Positions 51,402-63,103 of a DNA stretch of 64,000 bases are shown in pieces. The number at the start of each line of letters is the position of its first letter. Position 1 is the stretch's first letter. The position numbers and the translations under genes are program-made. The stretch comes from Balneolales bacterium (GTDB taxonomy: Bacteria > Bacteroidota > Rhodothermia > Balneolales > Cyclonatronaceae). The notes below the pieces were generated by a model. That model made no database searches. It was not told the origin of the DNA and saw nothing but the letters and a program-made list of their open reading frames with translations. The stretch lies in assembly GCA_020832405.1 (NCBI GenBank), contig JAFIET010000002.1, positions 1 to 64,000 of the forward strand, given 5' to 3'.

Positions 51402-51437
51402 AAGCCCGTGCATAAATTTATTGCGCGGGCTTTTCTT
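51402..51437 (+). terminator. terminator of the ankyrin gene, overlapping the end of the DUF2721 gene
   Basis: The arms aagcccgtgca and tgcgcgggctt form an 11-bp stem with one G-T pair and an 8-nt A/T loop, followed by ttctttt. The hairpin contains the stop codon of the convergent gene at 51418. Confidence 0.75.
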
Positions 51438-51837
51438 TTGGAACGGGGTTGCTTTCAATCAGGCTCAGCTGAAGATTCAGCGCTTCGACGGAGATGTATA
51501 TTTCCTGAATTGACAATGCCAGTGAATAAAGCAGGAAAAGCAGTGCTGCCCCGAATACATAACTGCCGGCTAAAAGGTAATCCGCAAAAAGAAGGAACAT
51601 GCAAAAAACGCACAAAAAGAGGCTGAGAACTCCGTGAAGCTGCATAGATTTTATCAGGTTTACACGCTTGCGCAGGTTTACAATCTGCCCGTAGATTAAG
51701 TGATCGGGGTTTTCCCGGTATTTTTGCGATAAGCCGCGGATTAGGCCGGAGAGGGTCAGAAACCGGTTGGTGTAGGCCAGCAGTAATAATGAAATGGCCG
51801 GAAATAACAGTGCCGGTGTTGTCAGGTCGAGAGACAT
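51418..51837 (-). CDS. DUF2721-like membrane protein
   Basis: This 139-residue inner-membrane protein has three predicted transmembrane helices (about 5-25, 70-90 and 95-112). A charged loop, 'RGLSQKYRENPDHLIYGQIVNLRKRVNLIKSM', lies between the first and second helix. The overall pattern, with 'LTTPALLFPAISLLLLAYTNRFLTLSGLIR', fits the uncharacterised DUF2721 family. It starts 9 bp after the 5'-nucleotidase stop, so it is the second gene of that operon. Nothing indicates its role. Confidence 0.75.
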   Translation of the reverse strand: MSLDLTTPALLFPAISLLLLAYTNRFLTLSGLIRGLSQKYRENPDHLIYGQIVNLRKRVNLIKSMQLHGVLSLFLCVFCMFLLFADYLLAGSYVFGAALLFLLYSLALSIQEIYISVEALNLQLSLIESNPVPKEKPAQ

Positions 51838-51846
51838 AGCTGCATA

Positions 51847-53484
51847 TTAGTAAACGATTTGCCAGTATTTACGGGCAACATCCTGTGGGTTGATGTGTCC
51901 TTTTTCCAGGAGGTATTGCTCAACCAGAAGTCTTACTGAGGTATCTATAACGCCGACCACTTCTGCACCGGCTATCATGTGGTAGTCGCCTCCGCCTACG
52001 GCACGATAGGAGTTGAGTGCAATGGTGAAGCTGTCTGAATCACGTACCGGCCTGCCGTTCACGCGGAGGTTTTCGATGCGTTCACCGGCGGGTTTACGCA
52101 GGTTTATCTGGTAGTTGGCCCCGTAAACGACGTCAAAATTGAAGCCGGGTATGTGGCCGGCAGGCTGCGGGAGCGCAGTACCGTCGCCATTGTAGGTTTC
52201 ATAGTAGCGGGCTGAAAATTCCAGATACTCCCGTAACACAGCCCCGCTTATCCGCAGCTTGAAAAGCGTATTTTCAAAAGGATATACCCTCGCAAGCGAC
52301 CCACGGTTGATGATGCCGTCTGTAAAAGCTGCATCGGTATGAAATATGGCACTGCCTGAGAGGTCTGCACCTGTTGCTCTTCGCTGAACATATTGTATAA
52401 GGTCAGTAATGGCACGGTCTGCAAGGCGGGCATCGGAGCTGCTCCATACAGAATCTGTTGTGGCAATGGCTTTTTGCATGTGGGAGCGCACCAATTCGTG
52501 TTCCCCAAGAAACTGCTCATACAAAGCTGTATGCGGTTTTGCGCCTTCAACAGGAAGGGCGATGTTCTTGCCGTAGGCGACCTGTACAGTTCCGGTGGCA
52601 TCACGGCTAAGCAGCAGCTCTGTATAACCTATGTGCGATGCCCAGCGACCCGGCTGAGTTACAGCTACTCCCTGCGGGTTGGCTTCTGATAAATAAATTA
52701 AATCATCGATTAACCGGTGTGTGTGCGACGTAACCATGGCATGAATGCCGGGCACCTCATCTGCAATTGCCCGGCCGAAATGCTCTTCACCCAAAACGTC
52801 GGATGTGTAGCTCGTAGAACCTTCAAAGCCTGAGTGAATCACCAGAATAATCACTTCTGCACCGTTTTCCAGCATTTCCGGCACATACCTGCGTGCAGAT
52901 TCAACCCCGTCTTCAAACCGAAGCCTGCCTTCGAGCCTTGGGCGGTCCCAAATGGCGGAACCCGGAGTTGTAAGGCCAAGTATGCCAATCTTATATCCGT
53001 CAACTTCTTTAATCAGCCATGGGGTATAGGCTGCTTGCCCTGTTTCGGAATGTAAGGCGTTGGCTGCCAGAAAGGGAGTATCGGACTGAGACATACGGAA
53101 GTGCAGGTGTTCAAGGCCGAAGTTGAACTCATGGTTTCCGACGACAACGGCGCTGAAATCAAGCGCATCAACGACACTCAAAAAAGGGTAGGCCAGGGTG
53201 GTATCAACCCTGGCAAAGTATTCAGCAAAGGGGTTGCCCTGAAGCCAGTCGCCGGCGTCTAAAGCAAGGGTGTGCGGGTTTTGCGAGCGAACGGAGTCGA
53301 TAATGGTGGCAGCTTTTAGAAGGCTGTAGCGCTCTTCAGGCTGATCATTATAGTAATCCCAGGGGAATACATAACCGTGAACATCAGCTGTAGAAAGTAA
53401 AACAAGCTTGGTTTCTTTTTCTGAGGTTGAGCATGCCCCTGCAATCAGGGGCAGAAGTAAAAGGAGTAACAGGGAAGGGCGCAT
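51847..53484 (-). CDS. 5'-nucleotidase / cyclic phosphodiesterase-type lipoprotein
   Basis: This protein of about 545 residues belongs to the UshA/CpdB-like metallophosphatase family, which dephosphorylates external nucleotides in the envelope. The lipobox is IAGACST near residue 18. The N-terminal metallophosphoesterase has STADVHG, 'LDAGDWLQGN', 'VVVGNHEFNFG' and 'MVTSHTHRL'. The C-terminal 5_nucleotid_C domain has 'NRGSLARVYPFENTLFKLRISGAVL' and 'NSYRAVGGGDYHMI'. The ATG at 53484 gives a true lipoprotein signal, while the open frame upstream runs through the terminator of the Hc1 gene. Nucleotide salvage fits the cytidine deaminase gene nearby. Confidence 0.92.
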   Translation of the reverse strand: MRPSLLLLLLLPLIAGACSTSEKETKLVLLSTADVHGYVFPWDYYNDQPEERYSLLKAATIIDSVRSQNPHTLALDAGDWLQGNPFAEYFARVDTTLAYPFLSVVDALDFSAVVVGNHEFNFGLEHLHFRMSQSDTPFLAANALHSETGQAAYTPWLIKEVDGYKIGILGLTTPGSAIWDRPRLEGRLRFEDGVESARRYVPEMLENGAEVIILVIHSGFEGSTSYTSDVLGEEHFGRAIADEVPGIHAMVTSHTHRLIDDLIYLSEANPQGVAVTQPGRWASHIGYTELLLSRDATGTVQVAYGKNIALPVEGAKPHTALYEQFLGEHELVRSHMQKAIATTDSVWSSSDARLADRAITDLIQYVQRRATGADLSGSAIFHTDAAFTDGIINRGSLARVYPFENTLFKLRISGAVLREYLEFSARYYETYNGDGTALPQPAGHIPGFNFDVVYGANYQINLRKPAGERIENLRVNGRPVRDSDSFTIALNSYRAVGGGDYHMIAGAEVVGVIDTSVRLLVEQYLLEKGHINPQDVARKYWQIVY

Positions 53485-53518
53485 AGCTAAAAAGAGGGGA
53501 CGTGTGTTGGCTTTGAAA

Positions 53519-53552
53519 CAAAAAAAAAGCCACACGCTGAGCTGTGGCTTAG
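53519..53552 (-). terminator. terminator of the Hc1-like gene
   Basis: The stem aagccaca/tgtggctt encloses an 8-nt loop and is followed on the minus strand by a run of ten T residues. It lies between the Hc1-like stop (53578) and the nucleotidase start (53484), so the two are separate units. Confidence 0.85.
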
Positions 53553-53939: not shown

Positions 53940-54563
53940 CTATATCTTTGATGAACGGAGCTTTTTTTGAAAGACTTCTGAAGAGGTCATTTGCGCAGGT
54001 TGAAGCAGGTTCAGCGGCATTGATGTTCCCGAAAGTTCTTCCGGAAGTTTTGCCGGTAAAGGATTGTCATCATGCCTGGTAAAAAGTAGTGCCTCGGGAT
54101 TGTCATTTGAGTCAAATGCACACAGATAGGTGAAGTTCATTGTTTCATGCAGCACCTCTGCAAGCTGTGCCAAGGGAAGGGCAGCTTGCATTCCGTTTTC
54201 GTCTTCAATCAGGTTTGAGAGCAGTACATTGGTCTTTGTTCCGAGCTCTTTCAGGAAGTTTGCATTGACCCTTATTTTATTTCCGTCTTTAACTATAGTT
54301 TTACGCTGATACCCGTTAATGGCGATCAGCGGGATGCCCTCATCGGCGAAAAGTGCGGTGAGCCTGTGGTTGAGCTCTTTTGTAGCCCTGATTCTCGCAG
54401 TTTCGGTGAGCACCCCCGTTTCTGTTATTCGGGATGTGTACTCGCTGTCAGCATGAATCATCATGAAAGAATCGAGTTTAAGACCGGCGAGTGAACGTGC
54501 GAAATGTTTGAGGAAAGTACCCTGATCAAGGCGGGTATAATCAAGGATGAAAAGGTATTTCAT
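53940..54563 (-). CDS. hypothetical protein, function unknown
   Basis: I do not recognise this 207-residue protein. It is soluble with no signal peptide or membrane span. The N-terminal half alternates strands and helices ('MKYLFILDYTRLDQG', 'LDSFMMIHADSEYTSRIT', 'GIPLIAINGYQRKTI'), like a Rossmann-type alpha/beta fold. The C-terminal half ('LAQLAEVLHETMNFTYLCAFDSNDNPEALLFT') is mixed. The vague similarity of 'LIAINGYQR' to amino-acid-kinase folds is too weak to use. It follows the cytidine deaminase by 85 bp on the same strand, so it may be the last gene of the salvage block. Confidence 0.65.
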   Translation of the reverse strand: MKYLFILDYTRLDQGTFLKHFARSLAGLKLDSFMMIHADSEYTSRITETGVLTETARIRATKELNHRLTALFADEGIPLIAINGYQRKTIVKDGNKIRVNANFLKELGTKTNVLLSNLIEDENGMQAALPLAQLAEVLHETMNFTYLCAFDSNDNPEALLFTRHDDNPLPAKLPEELSGTSMPLNLLQPAQMTSSEVFQKKLRSSKI

Positions 54564-54648: not shown

Positions 54649-55395
54649 TCATTCAGAAAAAGCAGATTGTTGGTTTTTGCCGGATTTCTTACTCAACTCA
54701 TCGCTTGAAAAATGATAGGGGAGAAGGTCTGTGCAGCCTACTGAAAGCAATTCAGTATGATTTTGGTAAAGATGAATCCGCTGCGATTGTATATGTTCCA
54801 TCATTACCTGACGGCATGCTCCGCACGGGCTCACGTAGTCGCCCATGGGTGCAGCGATATACATGTTGCCCGTTTCTGACGGGCCATAGCCGGCAGAAAT
54901 CGCCCTGCTGAGTGCAATCCGCTCGGCACACAGCCCAAGCTCCCAGCCGGTTGTTTCAGCATTTACCCCCGGTATAAATCCGTCATTTACCTGAAGCAAA
55001 GCAGCTACCGGAAAAGAGGAGTTGGGAATTACGGCCTTCTTGCAAAGCTCAAGCAGATGGTCGTATCGGATATTTCCCGAAATTTTAACGACCAGATTTT
55101 TGGGGCTGAATGTGAAATCAGCATCGGTAATGGTCGTAAAGCCAAAGGTTGTTTCCCAGTAGGATAGAAGTTCCCCTGTATCGGCTTCGTCAGGAAGTAT
55201 CAGTGTTTCGGGTTTTTCCCCGTCAGCAATGCAGGAAAATACTGCGGCCTGAATACGGCCGATGGTGAGGGGGTAAGAGATGTTTTCTATCCTCACACCG
55301 GGATAAAAATGCCCGGATACGGATTGGATTACACAGGCTTGTGGCTTTCCTGAATAGGGGACGTAGCTGAAAGTGCTTAATTTCTTGAAATTCAT
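54649..55395 (-). CDS. cdd: two-domain cytidine deaminase, N-terminal half degenerate
   Basis: This 248-residue protein has two cytidine-deaminase folds. The C-terminal half has the full zinc site: Cys and Glu in GLCAERIAL and the pair in SPCGACRQV. It also keeps the ligand residues Phe (NSSFPVAAL) and Asn-Glu (GVNAETTG). The N-terminal half keeps only fold residues ('FSYVPYSGKPQACVIQS', 'YPGVRIENISYPLTIGRIQAAVF'). Its CAE has become GRI, Asn is replaced by Arg, and no PCGxC is present. In E. coli Cdd the order is the reverse: the active half comes first. It should convert cytidine or deoxycytidine to the uridine form. The GH3 stop lies 3 bp upstream, so the two are co-transcribed. Confidence 0.88.
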   Translation of the reverse strand: MNFKKLSTFSYVPYSGKPQACVIQSVSGHFYPGVRIENISYPLTIGRIQAAVFSCIADGEKPETLILPDEADTGELLSYWETTFGFTTITDADFTFSPKNLVVKISGNIRYDHLLELCKKAVIPNSSFPVAALLQVNDGFIPGVNAETTGWELGLCAERIALSRAISAGYGPSETGNMYIAAPMGDYVSPCGACRQVMMEHIQSQRIHLYQNHTELLSVGCTDLLPYHFSSDELSKKSGKNQQSAFSE

Positions 55396-55398
55396 AAA

Positions 55399-58296
55399 TC
55401 AGTCTGTAACATCGGTGATGGCCTCAATCACGGCGTCCATCACCCTCGCTCTCACCTGATTAATGCCGGCGGAAGTTCCTCGCTCCGGATAGGTACGATT
55501 GGTAAGAATGATGACGGCAAGATTCCGCTGCGGGTCAACCCAGAGGCTTGTTCCGGTGAACCCCAGATGGCCAAAGGTGTCGTTGCTGCTCAGCTGACCG
55601 GCAGTAGTGAAGCCGTTAAGGCTTTTTAAGTCGAATCCCAGAGCCCTTCCCCCGCGGGAAGCGTCTCGGGAGGTAAAGGTACGCATAATTGCGTCCGAAA
55701 CATATTCACGCCCGCCGTAGCTTCCGTTGTTGAGCAAAAACTGCCCGTAAATGGCCAGGTTTCCGCTTGTGGAAAAAAGCCCTGCATGGCCTGCTATGCC
55801 ACCCATAAAGTGCGCGCGCTCGTCATGCACATCCCCGCGAATAATGGTGTTTCGCCACTGCCGGTCAACTTCTGTTGGCGGAATCCTGTTTAGCGTCCAT
55901 CTTCCGCGCCTTCTGGGGTTGAACAGCGTATCCGTCATGCCAATCGGGTAAAAAAACTGCGTGTTTAAAAACCGGTCGAGCGGCATTTCAGTAATCTGTT
56001 CAACAATTTCAGCAAGCAGGATGAAGCCAAGGTCGCTGTAGATTACCCCTTCGCCCGGCGGCTGAAGCAGCGGCTCAATGATAACGGCCTGAAGTATGGC
56101 CTCCCGGCTCTGAAACTGATCCACATAGAAGCGGTAAGCCGGCAGGCCGGAGGTGTGGTTGAGCAGATGCTCTATGGTGATGTCGCCTTTCATGCCTGAG
56201 CGGAAGCCCGGGATAAAAGACTGAACGGTTTGATCGAGCCGTAGCCTGCCCTGCTCGGCAAGCATCATTACAGCGGTAGTTGTAGCTACCGGTTTGGTGA
56301 GCGAAGCTATATCGTAAATATCAGTGCTGCGTACCGGGCGCCTTTTGTTATAGTCGTGATATCCATAGCCTTCATTCCAGGCTAAAATACCGTTTCGTAC
56401 AACTGCTACAGTTCCTCCGGGAAAGACAGAGTCCTGAACGGCCCTGTTCATGATTCGGGTGATTTCGTATAGTTTTTCGGTGGAAAGCCCTGCTGCTTCC
56501 GGGCGGTCCTGCCTTAAGATAGTTTTAGGAATTTCGATGCCTTCACCACGCACATACAGGCCCGGTATGGATATGGGCAGGCGTCCGGAAACATCGCTTG
56601 CTCCGAAAAGGGCTGCAGCTGTTGCTGCAGAATGGCTGCCGAGGGAAGTCCATGATAGTATGTGCACATCAGCATCCGGAATTTCATTAACCACATACGG
56701 GCTGGAGAATGAAATAACAACTTTCGGGCGCCCGAGTTGCTGAATGCGCCGTACAAAGCGCTGCTGTTCGCGGTTGAAAGTGATAGGCCTTCCTGTTGTA
56801 AGGGGCAGAAACGAGCCTACGATAATCAGGTTGGCTTGTCGGGCGGAAGCTATCGCTTCGTTGAGCTCCTGTTCGGAAGTTCGTTCGTCATACAAATGGA
56901 ATGAAATATCCGGATGATATTTTGAAAGTTCACTTCTGAATTCGGAACCCACATTGCCCGTACGGCCGCCGGCTATGGCGATAACGGTAATTTTGGGGAA
57001 CCGGTCGGGCCTTATCGGCAGAATGTCCCGGTTATTGCGCAGCACGGTAATCGATTCGCGTGCTATACGATCGGCCGTAAGCTGGTTTGCACGCGTATTT
57101 ACAACCCGTGAAATACGGTTGATGTTTACTTCGGCGTTGCGCATCAGCCCGTGATCGATTTTAAGCGCAAGGATGCGAAGCACCGAATCATCGATGCGGC
57201 TTTCGGAGATCTCGCCGCGTTGTACGGCCTCCTTAATCTGGAAAATGGCAGTGAGCTCATCCGGGGAAAGCAGCAGTACGTCGGCTCCTGCATTCAACGC
57301 TAGAACGGCCGCTTCACCCGGCGCATAATTCGACGCAATGCCCTGCATCTCAAGCCCGTCTGTTACGATGAGGCCGTCGAAGCCGAGTTCATCCCGCAGT
57401 AAACCGTGCATTAAACCGGGTTCAAGTGTGGCCGGTCGGTTAATACCCTCGGTAATATTAGGGAAGGCAATGTGCGCCGACATAACACTGCCAACGCCTG
57501 CATCAATTACCCGGCGAAAAGGCAGTAGTTCAAGCTGATTGAGGCGCTCGCGGGTGTGCTGCACAACCGGCAGACCGATATGGGAGTCAACGTCGGTATC
57601 TCCGTGTCCCGGAAAATGTTTGGCAGTTGCAACAATGCCCTGACTCTGCACTCCCTTTATGAAAGATTCGGCGTACATGCTCACGGTTTCAGGATCTTCG
57701 GAAAATGAGCGTACATTAATTACCGGGTTCTCAGGGTTGTTATTGATATCCACAACCGGAGCGTAAATCTGATGAACGCCGATAGCGCGTGCTTCAAGTG
57801 CTGTGATGCGTCCTTTTTCAAAGGCATTGTGAGGGTTGCCTGTAGCAGCAATGCCCATAGCGGGCGTGAATCGGGTTGTGCCGGAAATACGCATAGCTGC
57901 ACCGAATTCCATATCCTGACTGATCCAAAGGGGGATTCTGGACAGCCGCTGCAGTTTGTTATGCAGTACAGCCTGGTTGTAAATCTCCCCCCGGAAAAAT
58001 ATAATACCGCCAACCTGATACTCATTTACCATTCGTGAAAGGTGCAGAAACTCATCCGCATCTTCCGAATAGTAATTGCCTTGTGCCCGAATAACGATAA
58101 GCTGAGCAATTTTTTCCTGTAAACTCATGTCCCGAAGCAGGTGCAGGGCCTGTTCCTGTATGTGATTTCTCACATCATCAGTTGAGCCCGTTCCGGAGCT
58201 GAGGGCAGTTTCACCTAATGTTGTTGATTGAAGCGGAGTTGACAGTAAGATTAAAATGAAGAAGAAGCTAAAGGTTACACAAAATGGCCTGCACAT
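55399..58296 (-). CDS. GH3 beta-N-acetylhexosaminidase fused to a beta-lactamase-like domain
   Basis: This 965-residue exported protein (signal peptide about 1-24) contains three parts. A glycoside hydrolase family 3 N-domain has the NagZ signature 'TAKHFPGHGDTDVDSHIGLP' and nucleophile Asp in 'GLIVTDGLEMQGI'. A GH3 C-domain occupies about 410-570. A serine beta-lactamase/esterase domain (about 600-965) has the SxxK motif in 'IASLTKPVATT', YSD in place of YxN, 'GIAGHAGLFST' and GHLGFTGTSL. NagZ-type enzymes remove N-acetylglucosamine from peptidoglycan fragments. The fused domain may be an amidase or esterase for wall peptides, not a drug resistance enzyme. Upstream lies a sugar kinase and an acylase, giving a wall-salvage theme. 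Confidence 0.92.
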   Translation of the reverse strand: MCRPFCVTFSFFFILILLSTPLQSTTLGETALSSGTGSTDDVRNHIQEQALHLLRDMSLQEKIAQLIVIRAQGNYYSEDADEFLHLSRMVNEYQVGGIIFFRGEIYNQAVLHNKLQRLSRIPLWISQDMEFGAAMRISGTTRFTPAMGIAATGNPHNAFEKGRITALEARAIGVHQIYAPVVDINNNPENPVINVRSFSEDPETVSMYAESFIKGVQSQGIVATAKHFPGHGDTDVDSHIGLPVVQHTRERLNQLELLPFRRVIDAGVGSVMSAHIAFPNITEGINRPATLEPGLMHGLLRDELGFDGLIVTDGLEMQGIASNYAPGEAAVLALNAGADVLLLSPDELTAIFQIKEAVQRGEISESRIDDSVLRILALKIDHGLMRNAEVNINRISRVVNTRANQLTADRIARESITVLRNNRDILPIRPDRFPKITVIAIAGGRTGNVGSEFRSELSKYHPDISFHLYDERTSEQELNEAIASARQANLIIVGSFLPLTTGRPITFNREQQRFVRRIQQLGRPKVVISFSSPYVVNEIPDADVHILSWTSLGSHSAATAAALFGASDVSGRLPISIPGLYVRGEGIEIPKTILRQDRPEAAGLSTEKLYEITRIMNRAVQDSVFPGGTVAVVRNGILAWNEGYGYHDYNKRRPVRSTDIYDIASLTKPVATTTAVMMLAEQGRLRLDQTVQSFIPGFRSGMKGDITIEHLLNHTSGLPAYRFYVDQFQSREAILQAVIIEPLLQPPGEGVIYSDLGFILLAEIVEQITEMPLDRFLNTQFFYPIGMTDTLFNPRRRGRWTLNRIPPTEVDRQWRNTIIRGDVHDERAHFMGGIAGHAGLFSTSGNLAIYGQFLLNNGSYGGREYVSDAIMRTFTSRDASRGGRALGFDLKSLNGFTTAGQLSSNDTFGHLGFTGTSLWVDPQRNLAVIILTNRTYPERGTSAGINQVRARVMDAVIEAITDVTD

Positions 58297-58374
58297 GAGA
58301 TTCCGGAAAATGGGATTCGGGGATTGATGAACAATATTGAAGCGTGCTGCCCTTAAGATTAATGCTAAAATGTT

Positions 58375-59295
58375 CTAAAGGCAAACAACAGGTATGTTGC
58401 TGATTTCCTTTTTGGCCAGAAAACCGGCTGTATCCTGATAGCTGCGTTTGATCTGAATATCCGGGTAAGCAGCTGTGAGTTCCTGAATCACCCTTTCCAT
58501 AAACCAGCTGCTGTTAAATAAGCCGCCGTGCAGTGCAACCTGCTTCAGGCTGCGCTTAACACTAAAAGCTGCCGCGAAAAGGCTTAAAAGGGATTCAATG
58601 TGATGTTCTGCAATTTTCCGGCAGCTTGAATGTCCTGTGCTTGCCAGCTGCAGACAGGTTGGGGCGAGTGTGGAAGGGTTGAAATCGGAGCTGTACAGCA
58701 GTTTTAAGGCGTCAAGGCGGGTATTCAGGTAGAGGCCGTCTTTTTCCAGTATAGCTTTTACTTCAGGGTCGCGTGTGCCTTTATCCATGCAGCTCATCAG
58801 GCAGCTCATAAAATCTTTACCCAGCTGACGCCCGCTTCCGTATTCGTTGAGAGCGGGGCCGAAACCTCCGGCAACTTTTAAAATTCCGTCATGTCCGTAC
58901 ACAAGTACAGATCCGGTTCCGCAAATCAAAACAGCTCTGCCCTCAATTTTGCTGTCAGGGAAATTGGTAACAAATGTGGCTGCAATATCCGACATAACTG
59001 TAATTTTTGCGGCCCTGAAGATTCCTTTCAGACTTTGCGTGAGGGCCTGCCTGATTTCAGCCTGTGCGGCACCCGCTATGCCGGCTGTAATGCGTGAGGG
59101 CATCGGATAATTTTTTTTCTCACAAATATGACCGATAATCTGCGCGATAAGCCCTGCCGTTTCATCTGCGGGCTTAATCCGTGCCTGCAAAATGGGCCCG
59201 ACGGCTGAATAGGGTTGATCGTTATAATAAAACACGAAACGGGAACCACTGCCACCGCCGTCAATCCCGATACTGAGTTCGTGTGATGATGTCAT
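58375..59295 (-). CDS. BadF/BcrA-type ATPase, amino-sugar kinase-like
   Basis: This 306-residue protein has the actin-like ATPase fold of the BadF/BadG/BcrA/BcrD family, which includes N-acetylglucosamine kinase and MurNAc/GlcNAc kinase (MurK). The phosphate-1 loop is 'IGIDGGGSGSRFVF', the connect-1/phosphate-2 region is 'AVLICGTGSVLVYGHDG' and a later adenosine-type motif is in 'ALHGGLFNSSWF'. No cysteine cluster of the benzoyl-CoA reductase activators is seen, so a sugar kinase is favoured. It lies 78 bp before the GH3 gene on the same strand and would phosphorylate the GlcNAc that enzyme releases. The exact sugar is inferred. Confidence 0.85.
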   Translation of the reverse strand: MTSSHELSIGIDGGGSGSRFVFYYNDQPYSAVGPILQARIKPADETAGLIAQIIGHICEKKNYPMPSRITAGIAGAAQAEIRQALTQSLKGIFRAAKITVMSDIAATFVTNFPDSKIEGRAVLICGTGSVLVYGHDGILKVAGGFGPALNEYGSGRQLGKDFMSCLMSCMDKGTRDPEVKAILEKDGLYLNTRLDALKLLYSSDFNPSTLAPTCLQLASTGHSSCRKIAEHHIESLLSLFAAAFSVKRSLKQVALHGGLFNSSWFMERVIQELTAAYPDIQIKRSYQDTAGFLAKKEISNIPVVCL

Positions 59296-59335
59296 ATAAT
59301 AAACAAAAGGGTGAGGTGTAAACGTGCTAACTGTT

Positions 59336-61507
59336 TCACGTACCAGCCGGTTTTAGCCTTAGCTGAGATCGTGTTTTTGTGGATGGGATGAGTGAGAAGC
59401 GTTCGAAGTAGGGCCAGTAGCCCATGCCTGTATCAAACCAGGTTGAAAAAGGGTTATCAGAATGACCCGGGATAAGCATTGAAACATGTTCAGCATTGCC
59501 GTTTGGATCTGTGCGGCTTTGAAGCAGTGCTGTAGTGAATGAACTTGTCTGCACGCTGCCGTCACGCAGGTAAACGACGGCAGCGTTCACAAGGTCCTGT
59601 TGCCCGAGTATGGTTACATCACGCACGGCTTCGAGGGTGAAGCACGCCCTTTGGCGGAAAAATGCTGATTGCTGCGTATCCCCGCAGAGGGCAAGGTCAG
59701 TAAACGTATTCTTGTTTACATTTCCCCAGCGCCAGGCATATGGTTCTGGTCCGAAAATGGACTCCAGCTCAAAAAGAGCTTCCTGAACCCGGCGGGCAAA
59801 AAACTGATTGCTCACAGGGGAAGCTCCCTCCCGTGCTGTGAGGTGGGCATTAAGCAGAAAAACGCCGATCTCCGGATCGATCAGGTTTATATTGCGCAAA
59901 ACGCCAACAACTTCAGGGTCAAGATAAGCTGCAAGGGCATTTTCGGCTGTTTTAAACAGGCTAAGCTCTGTGAGGGTCGCAGCCGTGAGGTACCGGTTGT
60001 ACTGCCCGTCCCAATTCGACAGGTATTCGGCCGCCATCGAAAGAGATGGTACTGAAGTGTAGCCTGAAAGAATGTTGCTCAGGTTTTGCGCAAATTGAAG
60101 CCGGCCTTTATGGGTAACAAGTAATTCCGGATTGCTGAATTCAAGCAGCCGGTTGTATCCAAAAAAAGTCTGCCCCGAAAGGGCATCACTTACCGTGCTC
60201 CGGTAACCGGAGAAACGAATCGGGTACTGAGCCTGTAACTGAGGTTGAGTAAGCATGTTTTCATCATTATGGGTATTAATGATGTTGATATGCCTTTGTT
60301 CATAAACTTGCAGATTTTCCCGGCCAGATATGCCAATGCCCATGTAATCTCTGAAAATAGCACCGGTTTGTGTGTTAGATCTTTTGAAGGCAAAGCGGCT
60401 GCGCTGGTCGGGCAGCATTGTGAAGGAATCCGGGGTTATGTTCAGATGAAAAAGCATACTGCCGCCTTCGGCGGTTCTTACCGAAATACGGGAAGATGGC
60501 GCATAATCCTCATTTTGATAAAGGATATCTGTAATGACTTTAGAATTAACCGGATGCCAGCTTTTGTGCTCAGTTGAGCCTGCCCATAATACGGGTGTGC
60601 CGGGCAGCGTGAAGGCTCGTATGCCATTTCCGCTAAATGCCGGCCCTGTAAATGCTGCATCATACCAAAAACCTGGTGTGCCCGGCCCTGACTGAAAAGA
60701 GAGCAGGCTTGTGACAGTCCCGTCTTCATGCCATTCAGCTATCGACCTTACCGGATCAATCTGCCTTGGAGCATTCAGCAGTACCCTGAGCTGATAATCA
60801 GCTGTGAGCAGTTCACTAATCTGTTCAAGAAAGGCCGGACCCGCGTCAATTTCAGCAAATTCTGAGGTAATAGTGCGGCCAAAAAGCAGCGGTACAAGCC
60901 CCTGTGGAAGAAGTTTCGATACTTTCAGGTTGGCGAGCTGCTGTTGCCAGTCGGTTTCGAGCAGCCACAGCTGAAGTACAAAAGATGCTGCAACATCTTC
61001 AGCGGTCCATCGGGATGCACTGCTACCGCTAATCGTAAACTGCATAGGTAAATTTCTTCCGGCCTGATCAATAAAAGCATTAACACCTGCTGCGTAGCGC
61101 TCAAAACGCTGCATATCGGCAGCGGTAAACCCAAAAAAATCCTCAAACCGCTGATTGCCGGTTTCAAGTAGTAAGCGGGTGAGTAAATCAGCCCGCATGA
61201 AATCCTTACCGGCATATACCGATTGGGTACCCTGCACTGCGCGCTGCATTTTTTCGAGCTGCCATAGCCGGTCGCGGGCGTGCACGAAACCTAAAGCGGT
61301 TTCATAGTCCTCAATCTGCAGCAGCTTAATACTCACCATACCACTTTCAGTACGGTCAAGGCTTAGGGGTTGGTGAAGCGAATGGATGGTAAGGGTGCCG
61401 CTTTCAAAGCCCGAAGAACCAAATAATACAGAGCGAACGGTAAGAAAAAGTGATGCAGAAATCAGTACTGCAAGAAAAACCAGAAGTGCCGGTGATGTGA
61501 ACTTCAT
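59336..61507 (-). CDS. divergent penicillin-acylase-like (S45 family) protein
   Basis: This 723-residue protein has an N-terminal membrane anchor or signal (about 6-25) and a long alpha chain ('ALGFVHARDRLWQLEKMQRAVQGTQS', typical of S45). A central region follows where the autocatalytic Ser is expected: 'PAFSGNGIRAFTLPGTPVLWAG'. The usual G-SN-x-W and DPHL motifs are not clear there (GSTEHK replaces DPHL), so catalysis is doubtful. A C-terminal beta-chain region ('PYAWRWGNVNKNTFTD', 'GHSDNPFSTWFDTGMGYWPYF') is recognisable. S45 enzymes hydrolyse amide bonds of acylated compounds such as acyl-homoserine lactones or penicillins. It is the first gene of the block and starts 345 bp from lysA. 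Confidence 0.75.
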   Translation of the reverse strand: MKFTSPALLVFLAVLISASLFLTVRSVLFGSSGFESGTLTIHSLHQPLSLDRTESGMVSIKLLQIEDYETALGFVHARDRLWQLEKMQRAVQGTQSVYAGKDFMRADLLTRLLLETGNQRFEDFFGFTAADMQRFERYAAGVNAFIDQAGRNLPMQFTISGSSASRWTAEDVAASFVLQLWLLETDWQQQLANLKVSKLLPQGLVPLLFGRTITSEFAEIDAGPAFLEQISELLTADYQLRVLLNAPRQIDPVRSIAEWHEDGTVTSLLSFQSGPGTPGFWYDAAFTGPAFSGNGIRAFTLPGTPVLWAGSTEHKSWHPVNSKVITDILYQNEDYAPSSRISVRTAEGGSMLFHLNITPDSFTMLPDQRSRFAFKRSNTQTGAIFRDYMGIGISGRENLQVYEQRHINIINTHNDENMLTQPQLQAQYPIRFSGYRSTVSDALSGQTFFGYNRLLEFSNPELLVTHKGRLQFAQNLSNILSGYTSVPSLSMAAEYLSNWDGQYNRYLTAATLTELSLFKTAENALAAYLDPEVVGVLRNINLIDPEIGVFLLNAHLTAREGASPVSNQFFARRVQEALFELESIFGPEPYAWRWGNVNKNTFTDLALCGDTQQSAFFRQRACFTLEAVRDVTILGQQDLVNAAVVYLRDGSVQTSSFTTALLQSRTDPNGNAEHVSMLIPGHSDNPFSTWFDTGMGYWPYFERFSLIPSTKTRSQLRLKPAGT

Positions 61508-61852: not shown

Positions 61853-63103
61853 TTGACAAAAATAAGAGAAACTGACACAACAGCATTGCTTCAGGTTGCC
61901 CGGCAGCTTGGCACGCCCTGCTACGTTTACAATGAAGCCGTAATTATGAGACAAAGCAGAATTGTGCTTGATACATTTGAAAATCAGCCGGTTAAGTGGC
62001 TGTATGCAATAAAAGCCAACGACAACCCGCATATTCTTTCTCTGATTCAAAAATCCGGTATTGGCTTTGATACCGTAAGTTTCGAGGAAGTGCTGCTGTG
62101 CCGGCATTTTACAGATAATCCCCGGCAGATTTTCTACACTGAAAACAGCATGAGCGATGCTGAAATGGATGCTGCCATACAGATGGGCGTAATTCTCAAT
62201 ATTGGTTCATTAAAACGACTTGAACGCTTTTGCCGGCACCCTGAAGCGACTGAATGCTGCGTGCGAATTAATCCGGCAATTGGCGACGGGCATCACGCAC
62301 GGGTAAACACCGGCGACTCCGAAAGTAAATTCGGAATCCGGATCGGGCAGATTGAAGAAGCAGTAGCACTGGCCAAAAAATACGGCAAACGCATTATCGG
62401 TTTGCACGCTCATATTGGCAGCGGTATTAAAGAACCCGAAAACCTGATTGCAGCCATGAAAGTGTTAATAGAGCTCTCAAAGGAGTTTTCTGACCTTACC
62501 TTCATAAACTTTGGCGGCGGAATGCCGACCCCTTACCGGAGTTCGGAGAAACCTTTTGATATGGCGCATTTCGGCAGGCTTGCATCTGCGCTTTTTGAAG
62601 CTGACCTGAAAGGCCGGCCGGAGGGCTTTCACTATTTGTTTGAGCCCGGCCGCTGGTTTGTAGCTGAAGCCGGGTTTTTACTCACGAAGGTGCAAACCAT
62701 CAAAGATCAGCTCGAAACACGTTATCTTGGCACTGATACGGGTATGCATCACCTGATGCGCCCAATTATTTATGATGCCTGGCATGATGTGGTAAACCTC
62801 ACCAAAATTGAGCACACGCCAGATCAGCTCTACACAATTTCGGGTAACATATGCGAAAGCGGCGATATTCTGGCCTTCGACCGACTGCTTCCAGAGGCCG
62901 AAATGGATGATGTGCTCGCGTTCTGCGATGCCGGAGCCTACGGTATGACGATGGCTTCACAATATAACCGGCGGGCGCTGCCGGCTGAAGCACTGCTTAA
63001 AACCGACGGCACGTTTCAAATAATCAGACCTGCGCAAACGGCAGAAGAAACGGTTGCCGAATTTTTGGATAAATGCAGGTTTACAACTACCATCAATAGC
63101 TGA
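61853..63103 (+). CDS. lysA: diaminopimelate decarboxylase
   Basis: This PLP enzyme decarboxylates meso-diaminopimelate to lysine. The fold-III sequence shows the PLP-lysine in 'WLYAIKANDNPHIL', the glycine loop HIGSGIKEP, 'NFGGGMPTPY', 'YLFEPGRWFVAEAG', 'GNICESGDILAF' and the C-terminal 'DAGAYGMTMASQYN'. The 416-residue length is normal. It starts with TTG at 61853 in the sequence ggaattTTGACAA, with GAGGAATT just before as a weak ribosome site. An arginine/ornithine decarboxylase is unlikely, because CESGD and the GAYG block are typical of LysA. It lies 81 bp before the next gene. Confidence 0.92.
   Translation: MTKIRETDTTALLQVARQLGTPCYVYNEAVIMRQSRIVLDTFENQPVKWLYAIKANDNPHILSLIQKSGIGFDTVSFEEVLLCRHFTDNPRQIFYTENSMSDAEMDAAIQMGVILNIGSLKRLERFCRHPEATECCVRINPAIGDGHHARVNTGDSESKFGIRIGQIEEAVALAKKYGKRIIGLHAHIGSGIKEPENLIAAMKVLIELSKEFSDLTFINFGGGMPTPYRSSEKPFDMAHFGRLASALFEADLKGRPEGFHYLFEPGRWFVAEAGFLLTKVQTIKDQLETRYLGTDTGMHHLMRPIIYDAWHDVVNLTKIEHTPDQLYTISGNICESGDILAFDRLLPEAEMDDVLAFCDAGAYGMTMASQYNRRALPAEALLKTDGTFQIIRPAQTAEETVAEFLDKCRFTTTINS

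Follow-up and report, generated by a model that had tools for sequence, protein, structure and literature searches.

Why does the gene of a cytidine deaminase (CDA) reside among genes whose predicted products act on sugars of the cell wall? The question is raised by a cluster in the genome of a Balneolales bacterium (GenBank assembly GCA_020832405.1; 3.96 Mb, 188 contigs). The analyzed DNA, hereafter the window, comprises the first 64,000 nucleotides (forward strand) of the 131-kb contig JAFIET010000002.1. An earlier note, made from the sequence of the window alone, had described four genes on one strand with gaps of 40, 78 and 3 bp, encoding an S45-like acylase, a BadF-type amino-sugar kinase, a fusion of a NagZ-type hexosaminidase of glycoside hydrolase family 3 (GH3) with a beta-lactamase-fold domain, and the CDA, whose coupling to wall-sugar salvage was regarded as unexpected. 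The four minus-strand open reading frames (ORFs) and the gaps between them were confirmed, but the cluster extends further, as a fifth gene behind the CDA gene had been missed. Its product, an amino-acid-kinase-fold protein, is named AAK in this study. The cluster proved to be genuine and conserved, and its details are more unusual than the earlier note had assumed; the interpretation given in the earlier note was partly supported. That the whole constitutes a Balneolales salvage locus for wall sugars and cytidine may, in our judgement, just as well be right as wrong.

Gene order of the cluster in Balneolales

Fifty-four loci of the order were read, the window included, 34 of which had been picked through a match to the GH3 fusion and 20 through a match to the CDA (some genomes span two contigs). 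The codes f1 to f5 refer to families of the order, f1 being the window's own. A called CDA ORF was present in 49 loci (29 GH3-picked, 20 CDA-picked). Gene order, named beforehand in the earlier note as a refuting test, turned out to be conserved: the next same-strand ORF upstream of the CDA gene was in all 49 loci either a GH3(-lactamase) gene (34/49) or an S45 gene (15/49). The GH3 gene occupied this position in 29/29 GH3-picked and 5/20 CDA-picked loci, the S45 gene in the other 15/20 CDA-picked loci. The GH3 share is thus inflated, because 29 loci had been picked by the fusion itself. Match positions also put a GH3 gene beside the CDA gene in four genomes with a CDA match whose loci were not fetched (G032, G040, G049, G053). 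The AAK gene directly followed the CDA gene in 40/49 loci (21/29 GH3-picked, 19/20 CDA-picked). A BadF gene immediately preceded the GH3 gene in 10/49 loci (f1, f3, f5) and likewise in four of the five loci without a called CDA ORF (L056, L061, L063, L065). Median gaps amounted to 3 bases for S45-BadF, 30 for BadF-GH3, -1 for GH3-CDA and 10.5 for CDA-AAK, with wide ranges. Four f4 loci (L041, L044, L051, L054) showed no S45 gene in this position; five others (L012, L027, L059, L062, L064) start at or near a contig end. Several f3 genomes carry a GH3-only gene (about 610 aa) at the place of the fusion. Locus L119 contains the GH3-lactamase fusion, CDA and AAK, with three same-strand ORFs upstream in place of S45.

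The same gene order was encountered in a second set of 57 named loci picked by AAK, in which 26/56 of the CDAs were identical to ones already counted. Of the 56 loci with a called AAK ORF, 55 had a CDA gene that ended no more than 1 kb upstream of it; L142 ends inside AAK. In the sole exception, L132, an over-long AAK ORF overlaps, and a separate CDA search matched that place in G017. The named records containing the cluster belong mostly to Balneolales or Balneolota. Five of the 57 are otherwise titled (one 'Chitinophagaceae', four 'Bacteroidetes' assemblies), and in the CDA tree the 'Chitinophagaceae' locus grouped with Rhodohalobacter halophilus. As the same order recurs in relatives, we concluded that the arrangement is not due to chance. 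Neither is the CDA an incidental guest, since it was matched in 54/59 genomes of the order (at one place per genome, nine of these in two pieces) and directly follows S45 in most CDA-picked loci. The core of the cluster looks like S45-CDA-AAK, to which GH3(-lactamase) and BadF are added in some loci but not in others.

Several observations weigh against a common salvage function. In 15 of the 20 CDA-picked loci (f1, f2, f3, f4), no GH3 gene lies between S45 and CDA. Among the loci read, the BadF gene is missing from those of f4, from the f2 locus, from most f3 loci and from the f1 locus L073. The BadF protein of the window matched BcrAD_BadFG (PF01869) with 30.9 bits, under the cut-off of 31.5, and NagK_SO3507 of NCBIfam with 35.7 bits (E 7e-9), under the cut-off of 370. 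No wall-sugar transporter was recognized within the cluster. Finally, where loci of other orders of the class were inspected, the CDA gene has quite different neighbors (Na/Ca-exchanger-like and VWA-like by eye), so that its association with wall genes does not hold everywhere. These neighbors and the missing GH3 gene, together with flanks that vary by family (lysA by S45 in f1, f3 and f5, a 3-hydroxyacyl-CoA dehydrogenase gene in f4), would also fit a housekeeping neighborhood, held together by co-transcription or slow rearrangement without any pathway shared by wall turnover and cytidine salvage. We regard this explanation as possible, albeit doubtful, as S45, CDA and AAK stay linked across families with differing flanks, and the gaps between GH3 and CDA and between CDA and AAK are short.

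The two-lobe cytidine deaminase and its neighbor AAK

The assignment of the CDA made in the earlier note proved right, but the reversed order of its lobes had been overlooked. Pfam disclosed two cytidine-deaminase regions, and the TIGR01354 model was matched over its cut-off (115.3 versus 113.65 bits). Seven residues of the second lobe (N145, E147, C156, A157, E158, C191, C194) were invariant in 48/48 sequences; cytidine deaminases have C-A-E ... P-C-x-x-C as zinc motif and N-x-E as ribose-binding motif. In the first lobe, E37, S40 and C55 were likewise invariant (48/48). The first lobe aligned with the CAE segment but does not contain its residues, and the two lobes matched each other in a profile comparison (P 2.5e-7). 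The degenerate first lobe (55096-55395) has thus retained an invariant cysteine, C55. In Escherichia coli Cdd, the first lobe is catalytic and the second is broken. The AlphaFold model of the window's CDA (pLDDT 92.5) could be superimposed on the two lobes of this enzyme (1ctt), residues 1-213 on 55-294 (Z 17.1, 198 residues, 3.4 A). According to these ranges the first lobe falls on the first and the second on the second, with the catalytic duty exchanged. When the second lobe was taken by itself, single-lobe tetrameric CDAs gave a slightly better score (Z 18.6).

In a sample of the class, the CDA was matched in 108/117 genomes, and most matches reached into both lobes. In a sample of the phylum (109/148 genomes matched, class members included), none of the matches listed outside the class started before model position 62, and they covered essentially the second lobe only. 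Among the genomes sampled, two-lobe matches were therefore confined to the class. The simplest reading would be that a duplication took place in the class or before it and that the first copy decayed afterwards.

At E 0.001, neither Pfam nor NCBIfam gave a match to the AAK of the window, which so belongs to a family that these databases do not name for the window protein. PF00696 was detected in two of ten relatives (best E 2.5e-4), and a PDB profile search with the AAK sequence yielded one hit at chance level (E 1). However, its AlphaFold model (pLDDT 93.3) resembles N-acetylglutamate kinases (1gs5, 2wxb, 3t7b) with Z 16.6-17.4 over 192-198 of 207 residues. Enzymes of the amino-acid kinase family depend on catalytic lysines. 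At AAK residue 8, judged by eye only to be the equivalent of the N-terminal lysine, an Asp was found in 42/45 sequences, and the HGGG motif of the genome's own ArgB-like N-acetylglutamate kinase reads HADS in AAK, albeit in a weak hhalign alignment (probability 23%, P 9e-4). The similarity in fold does not pick a function, because Foldseek ranked isopentenyl phosphate kinases first by E-value. Nine residues (H37, S40, T43, R45, R59, R67, D74, Q86, S116) were invariant in 45/45 sequences, which indicates that some site is probably under selection despite the altered kinase motif. The protein of the window deviates at two positions, Glu48 (Gln in 44/45) and Thr53 (Arg in 44/45). From these sequences it is probable that AAK has lost the kinase motifs and binds a ligand or the CDA. 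Two other assignments were considered: a UMP kinase is unsupported, the hhalign alignment with the genome's own PyrH-like protein covering only 11 columns, and the role of the genome's ArgB is ruled out by a separate full-length ArgB-like gene, which is followed by an aminotransferase-like gene.

AAK was detected in 47/59 genomes of the order. The class sample contained it in 70/117 genomes, 48 of the order and 22 with weaker matches outside it. Six outside-order loci were fetched, four of which yielded AAK-like ORFs; in no case did these lie beside a CDA gene. In two outside-order loci (L175, L178), the AAK-like gene is followed in the same order by ORFs of approximately 305-323 aa and 700-715 aa.

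These data bear on a second alternative, in which CDA and AAK form one unit, with AAK as the sensor of a nucleotide or amino-acid-like ligand and as the regulator of the CDA, and in which the wall genes are only carried along. It draws on the close neighborhood of both genes in the two sets of loci and on the nine polar residues kept in all AAK sequences though the kinase motifs are gone. On the other hand, 9/49 loci had no called AAK ORF behind the CDA gene (one off the contig end, one with a weak AAK match), and the four AAK-like ORFs recovered outside the order do not lie beside CDA. We consider such a unit conceivable but rather improbable.

The fusion protein, the kinase and the S45 protein

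The description of the third gene as a NagZ-type hexosaminidase fused to a beta-lactamase-fold domain was borne out. Pfam revealed Glyco_hydro_3 (E 1e-89), Glyco_hydro_3_C and Beta-lactamase (E 3e-65) in a single frame, and the active sites of both parts were invariant among 49 distinct fusion sequences of over 900 aa. In the GH3 part this applied to K226-T234, D237-S238-H239 and the nucleophile D313; NagZ-type enzymes use a KHFPGHGDT..DSH loop together with an Asp nucleophile. In the lactamase part it applied to S665, K668, Y753, H910 and G912. The serine beta-lactamase/penicillin-binding protein (PBP) fold is marked by SxxK, YxN-type and K/HxG motifs; here, Y753 is followed by S-D and not by x-N.

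For the BadF-type kinase, a specificity for amino sugars as proposed in the earlier note is plausible. The sole PDB sequence match at E 0.001 was the MurNAc/GlcNAc kinase 8zo3 (E 3e-8), and the under-cut-off match to PF01869 is the only one in the genome. The motifs GIDGGG, SD, GTGS and GG.., which are ATPase-fold motifs, are present in the protein of the window and widely kept in the alignment. MurQ was found over the cut-off in 40/40 and AnmK in 38/40 genomes searched, in each case including the window's own. Thus, a MurNAc-6-P route exists in this genome, and phosphorylation of MurNAc or GlcNAc by the BadF protein is plausible. A BadF-like match occurred in 39/59 genomes of the order. Weak ones lie near another GH3 gene (G021:C44, G048:C7) or near murQ (G007:C119) in relatives; for many, no GH3 or murQ neighbor was listed, not all having been checked for neighbors.

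The first gene product matched Penicil_amidase (PF01804), best at residues 51-318 (E 2e-37), in line with the S45-like acylase described before, but the assumption of an active enzyme was not supported. S45 Ntn-hydrolases possess an autocatalytic Ser (GSN.W) followed by a DPH/NPQ-type motif. Among 65 distinct orthologues of at least 600 aa (shorter fragments and duplicates were left out), 42 exhibited GSNAW and the DPH motif at the aligned place. Both were missing in eight members of the window's family (the window, L035-L040, L063) and in 15 more, namely L075-L085 of f3 and the named loci L123, L125, L131 and L133, which group with L075-L085 in the CDA tree. L073, also of the window's family, has intact motifs. 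At the place of the nucleophile, L075-L085 carry other letters (often GTG-like) than the window's family. An active acylase in the genome of the window was rejected because of the missing nucleophile and DPH motifs, and from its sequence the protein is probably a pseudo-acylase; the label 'penicillin acylase' calls for caution here, as it stands for a protein without the catalytic motif. In the CDA tree (60 rows), all 22 dead S45 forms lay on one side of a branch with support 89/58. The CDA+AAK tree (31 rows, adding split-contig genomes) required three changes, and a single origin appeared in 0/200 bootstrap trees, but the AU test on this tree did not reject one clade of dead forms (p 0.22). 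By these trees, S45 catalysis may have been lost once or repeatedly. That the S45 protein acts on N-acylated cytidine-type or other amides and the CDA takes the product, as an acyl-nucleoside salvage or detoxification, is highly improbable: S45 does adjoin CDA in the 15 loci where GH3 is absent, and its motifs are intact in most orthologues, but it looks membrane-anchored and exported while the CDA has no export signal by eye, and most S45 proteins of the window's family and many of f3 are dead, while the CDA stays intact.

The neighborhood of the cluster was inspected as well (Table 1). A CpdB-like gene directly followed AAK in 7/49 loci, with one ORF between them in an eighth, all from the window's family. 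This position fits a supply of cytidine. According to a survey, Balneolota have cpdB-like but no ushA-like genes (PMC10454023). A DUF2721 gene (51418-51837) follows the CpdB-like gene and recurs in loci of the same family. On the other side, lysA (diaminopimelate decarboxylase, 61853-63103) is transcribed divergently from S45, as it is in many loci of f1, f3 and f5; many f4 loci have the 3-hydroxyacyl-CoA dehydrogenase gene in its place. Rfam at the gathering threshold gave no match in the window, tRNA genes were not found there, and PADLOC gave no hit with six proteins. Promoter-like (15 versus 11.9 in shuffles, sd 3.9) and terminator-like sites (19 versus 13.1, sd 3.7) were not used because they were little above the shuffles.

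Table 1. Features of the cluster and its downstream neighbor in the window.
Feature	Position	Strand	Basis
S45 penicillin-acylase-like protein, 723 aa; apparently membrane-anchored, probably catalytically dead	59336..61507	-	PF01804; GSNAW and DPH motifs missing; hydrophobic N-terminus by eye
S45 residues 252-278, aligned with the lost Ntn-nucleophile segment	60674..60754	-	Alignment
BadF/MurK-type kinase, presumed amino-sugar kinase, 306 aa	58375..59295	-	PF01869 just under cut-off; NagK_SO3507; PDB 8zo3; sole PF01869 match in genome
NagZ-type GH3 beta-N-acetylglucosaminidase with serine beta-lactamase/PBP-fold domain, 965 aa, presumed exported	55399..58296	-	Pfam; residue conservation; RmNag3 architecture; hydrophobic N-terminus by eye
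GH3 N-terminal domain, KHFPGHGDT..DSH loop and Asp313 nucleophile	57166..58122	-	Pfam; conserved 49/49
GH3 C-terminal domain	56560..57051	-	Pfam
Beta-lactamase-fold domain, Ser665-x-x-Lys668, Tyr753, His910-x-Gly912	55474..56457	-	Pfam; residue conservation
Two-lobe CDA, 248 aa, catalysis in second lobe	54649..55395	-	Pfam; NCBIfam; model; conservation
Degenerate first CDA lobe	55096..55395	-	PF08211 at residues 10-63; hhalign to own second lobe P 2.5e-7
Catalytic second CDA lobe, Cys156-Ala-Glu158, Cys191, Cys194	54688..55080	-	Conserved 48/48
Fifth gene, AAK, kinase motifs replaced, presumed non-kinase partner of CDA	53940..54563	-	AlphaFold model; fold match; adjacency to CDA
CpdB-like 2',3'-cyclic phosphodiesterase/3'-nucleotidase, after the cluster in the window's family	51847..53535	-	NCBIfam NF006938 E 6e-77, under cut-off

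Proposed function and known systems

From the observed gene order, domain content, residue conservation and predicted folds we infer the activities of the cluster and a possible functional coupling of wall and nucleoside salvage. The exported fusion would trim GlcNAc from wall fragments, by analogy to a homologue from Rhodothermus marinus, to which the biochemistry is confined, and its lactamase-fold domain probably cuts peptide or ester bonds. In the window's family, the BadF kinase would phosphorylate MurNAc and/or GlcNAc after import, and MurQ, the gene of which lies at another place in the genome, would convert MurNAc-6-P into GlcNAc-6-P. The CDA would deaminate cytidine and deoxycytidine, fed in the same family by the adjacent CpdB-like nucleotidase, and the probable role of AAK is to bind a ligand or the CDA. 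Predicted to be incapable of amide hydrolysis in this genome, the S45 protein may have been retained for a different task, for instance binding or serving as a partner. Ca. Cyclonatronum proteinivorum, a Balneolota isolate in culture, is described as having been obtained on sonicated cyanobacterial cells, and a lifestyle of this kind would provide both wall fragments and nucleic acids. We also considered that the non-kinase AAK and the swapped-lobe CDA form a sensor-enzyme unit tying pyrimidine salvage to wall turnover, with the dead S45 protein as envelope-side binding component, a more elaborate model that we think is unlikely. A literature search, limited to the terms used and with most subscription journals and preprints outside its coverage, did not reveal any account of the cluster, a CDA with swapped lobes or a CDA neighbor with the AAK fold. 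The salvage reading suggests a testable link between wall recycling and pyrimidine salvage at the level of the order.

Several components can be compared with characterized systems. The fusion is of a known kind that has already been described: RmNag3 of R. marinus (Rmar_0925) likewise consists of GH3 domains 1 and 2 followed by a C-terminal beta-lactamase domain, its gene likewise has an 'ATPase' gene upstream, and the enzyme cleaves pNP-GlcNAc and chito-oligosaccharides (PMC6987092). The likeness rests on domain architecture and not on a residue-by-residue comparison. The same report names Rhodohalobacter halophilus as having this architecture, and among the neighbors that it mentions for RmNag3 (atpase, rlmN, methylmalonyl-CoA mutase, menB, sfp, sodA and others) there is no gene for a CDA, an S45 protein or a kinase-fold protein. 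The two GH3 domains are matched at fusion residues 51-581 by NagZ/YbbD of Bacillus subtilis (PDB 3bmx, 4gyj; chains of 642-648 residues; E 5e-81), and this match does not reach into the beta-lactamase domain. The kinase is of the BadF type like the MurK kinases 8zo3 and Tf_MurK, the latter a characterized MurNAc 6-kinase of Tannerella forsythia (PMC5790795), and MurQ is present in the window's genome too. It differs in that the similarity to 8zo3 reaches only E 3e-8 and that its gene lies with the GH3 fusion and the CDA gene, while murQ is on another contig. With the S45 penicillin acylases, the protein of the window shares the N-terminal PF01804 part but has lost the Ntn-serine and DPH motifs. 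The CDA has two lobes like the E. coli-type dimeric enzyme but differs from it in its zinc motif, which is the three-cysteine form assigned to tetrameric CDAs (PMC6686228), and in the order of the lobes. Its catalytic lobe is the second, which suggests that a two-lobe deaminase can place catalysis in either lobe.

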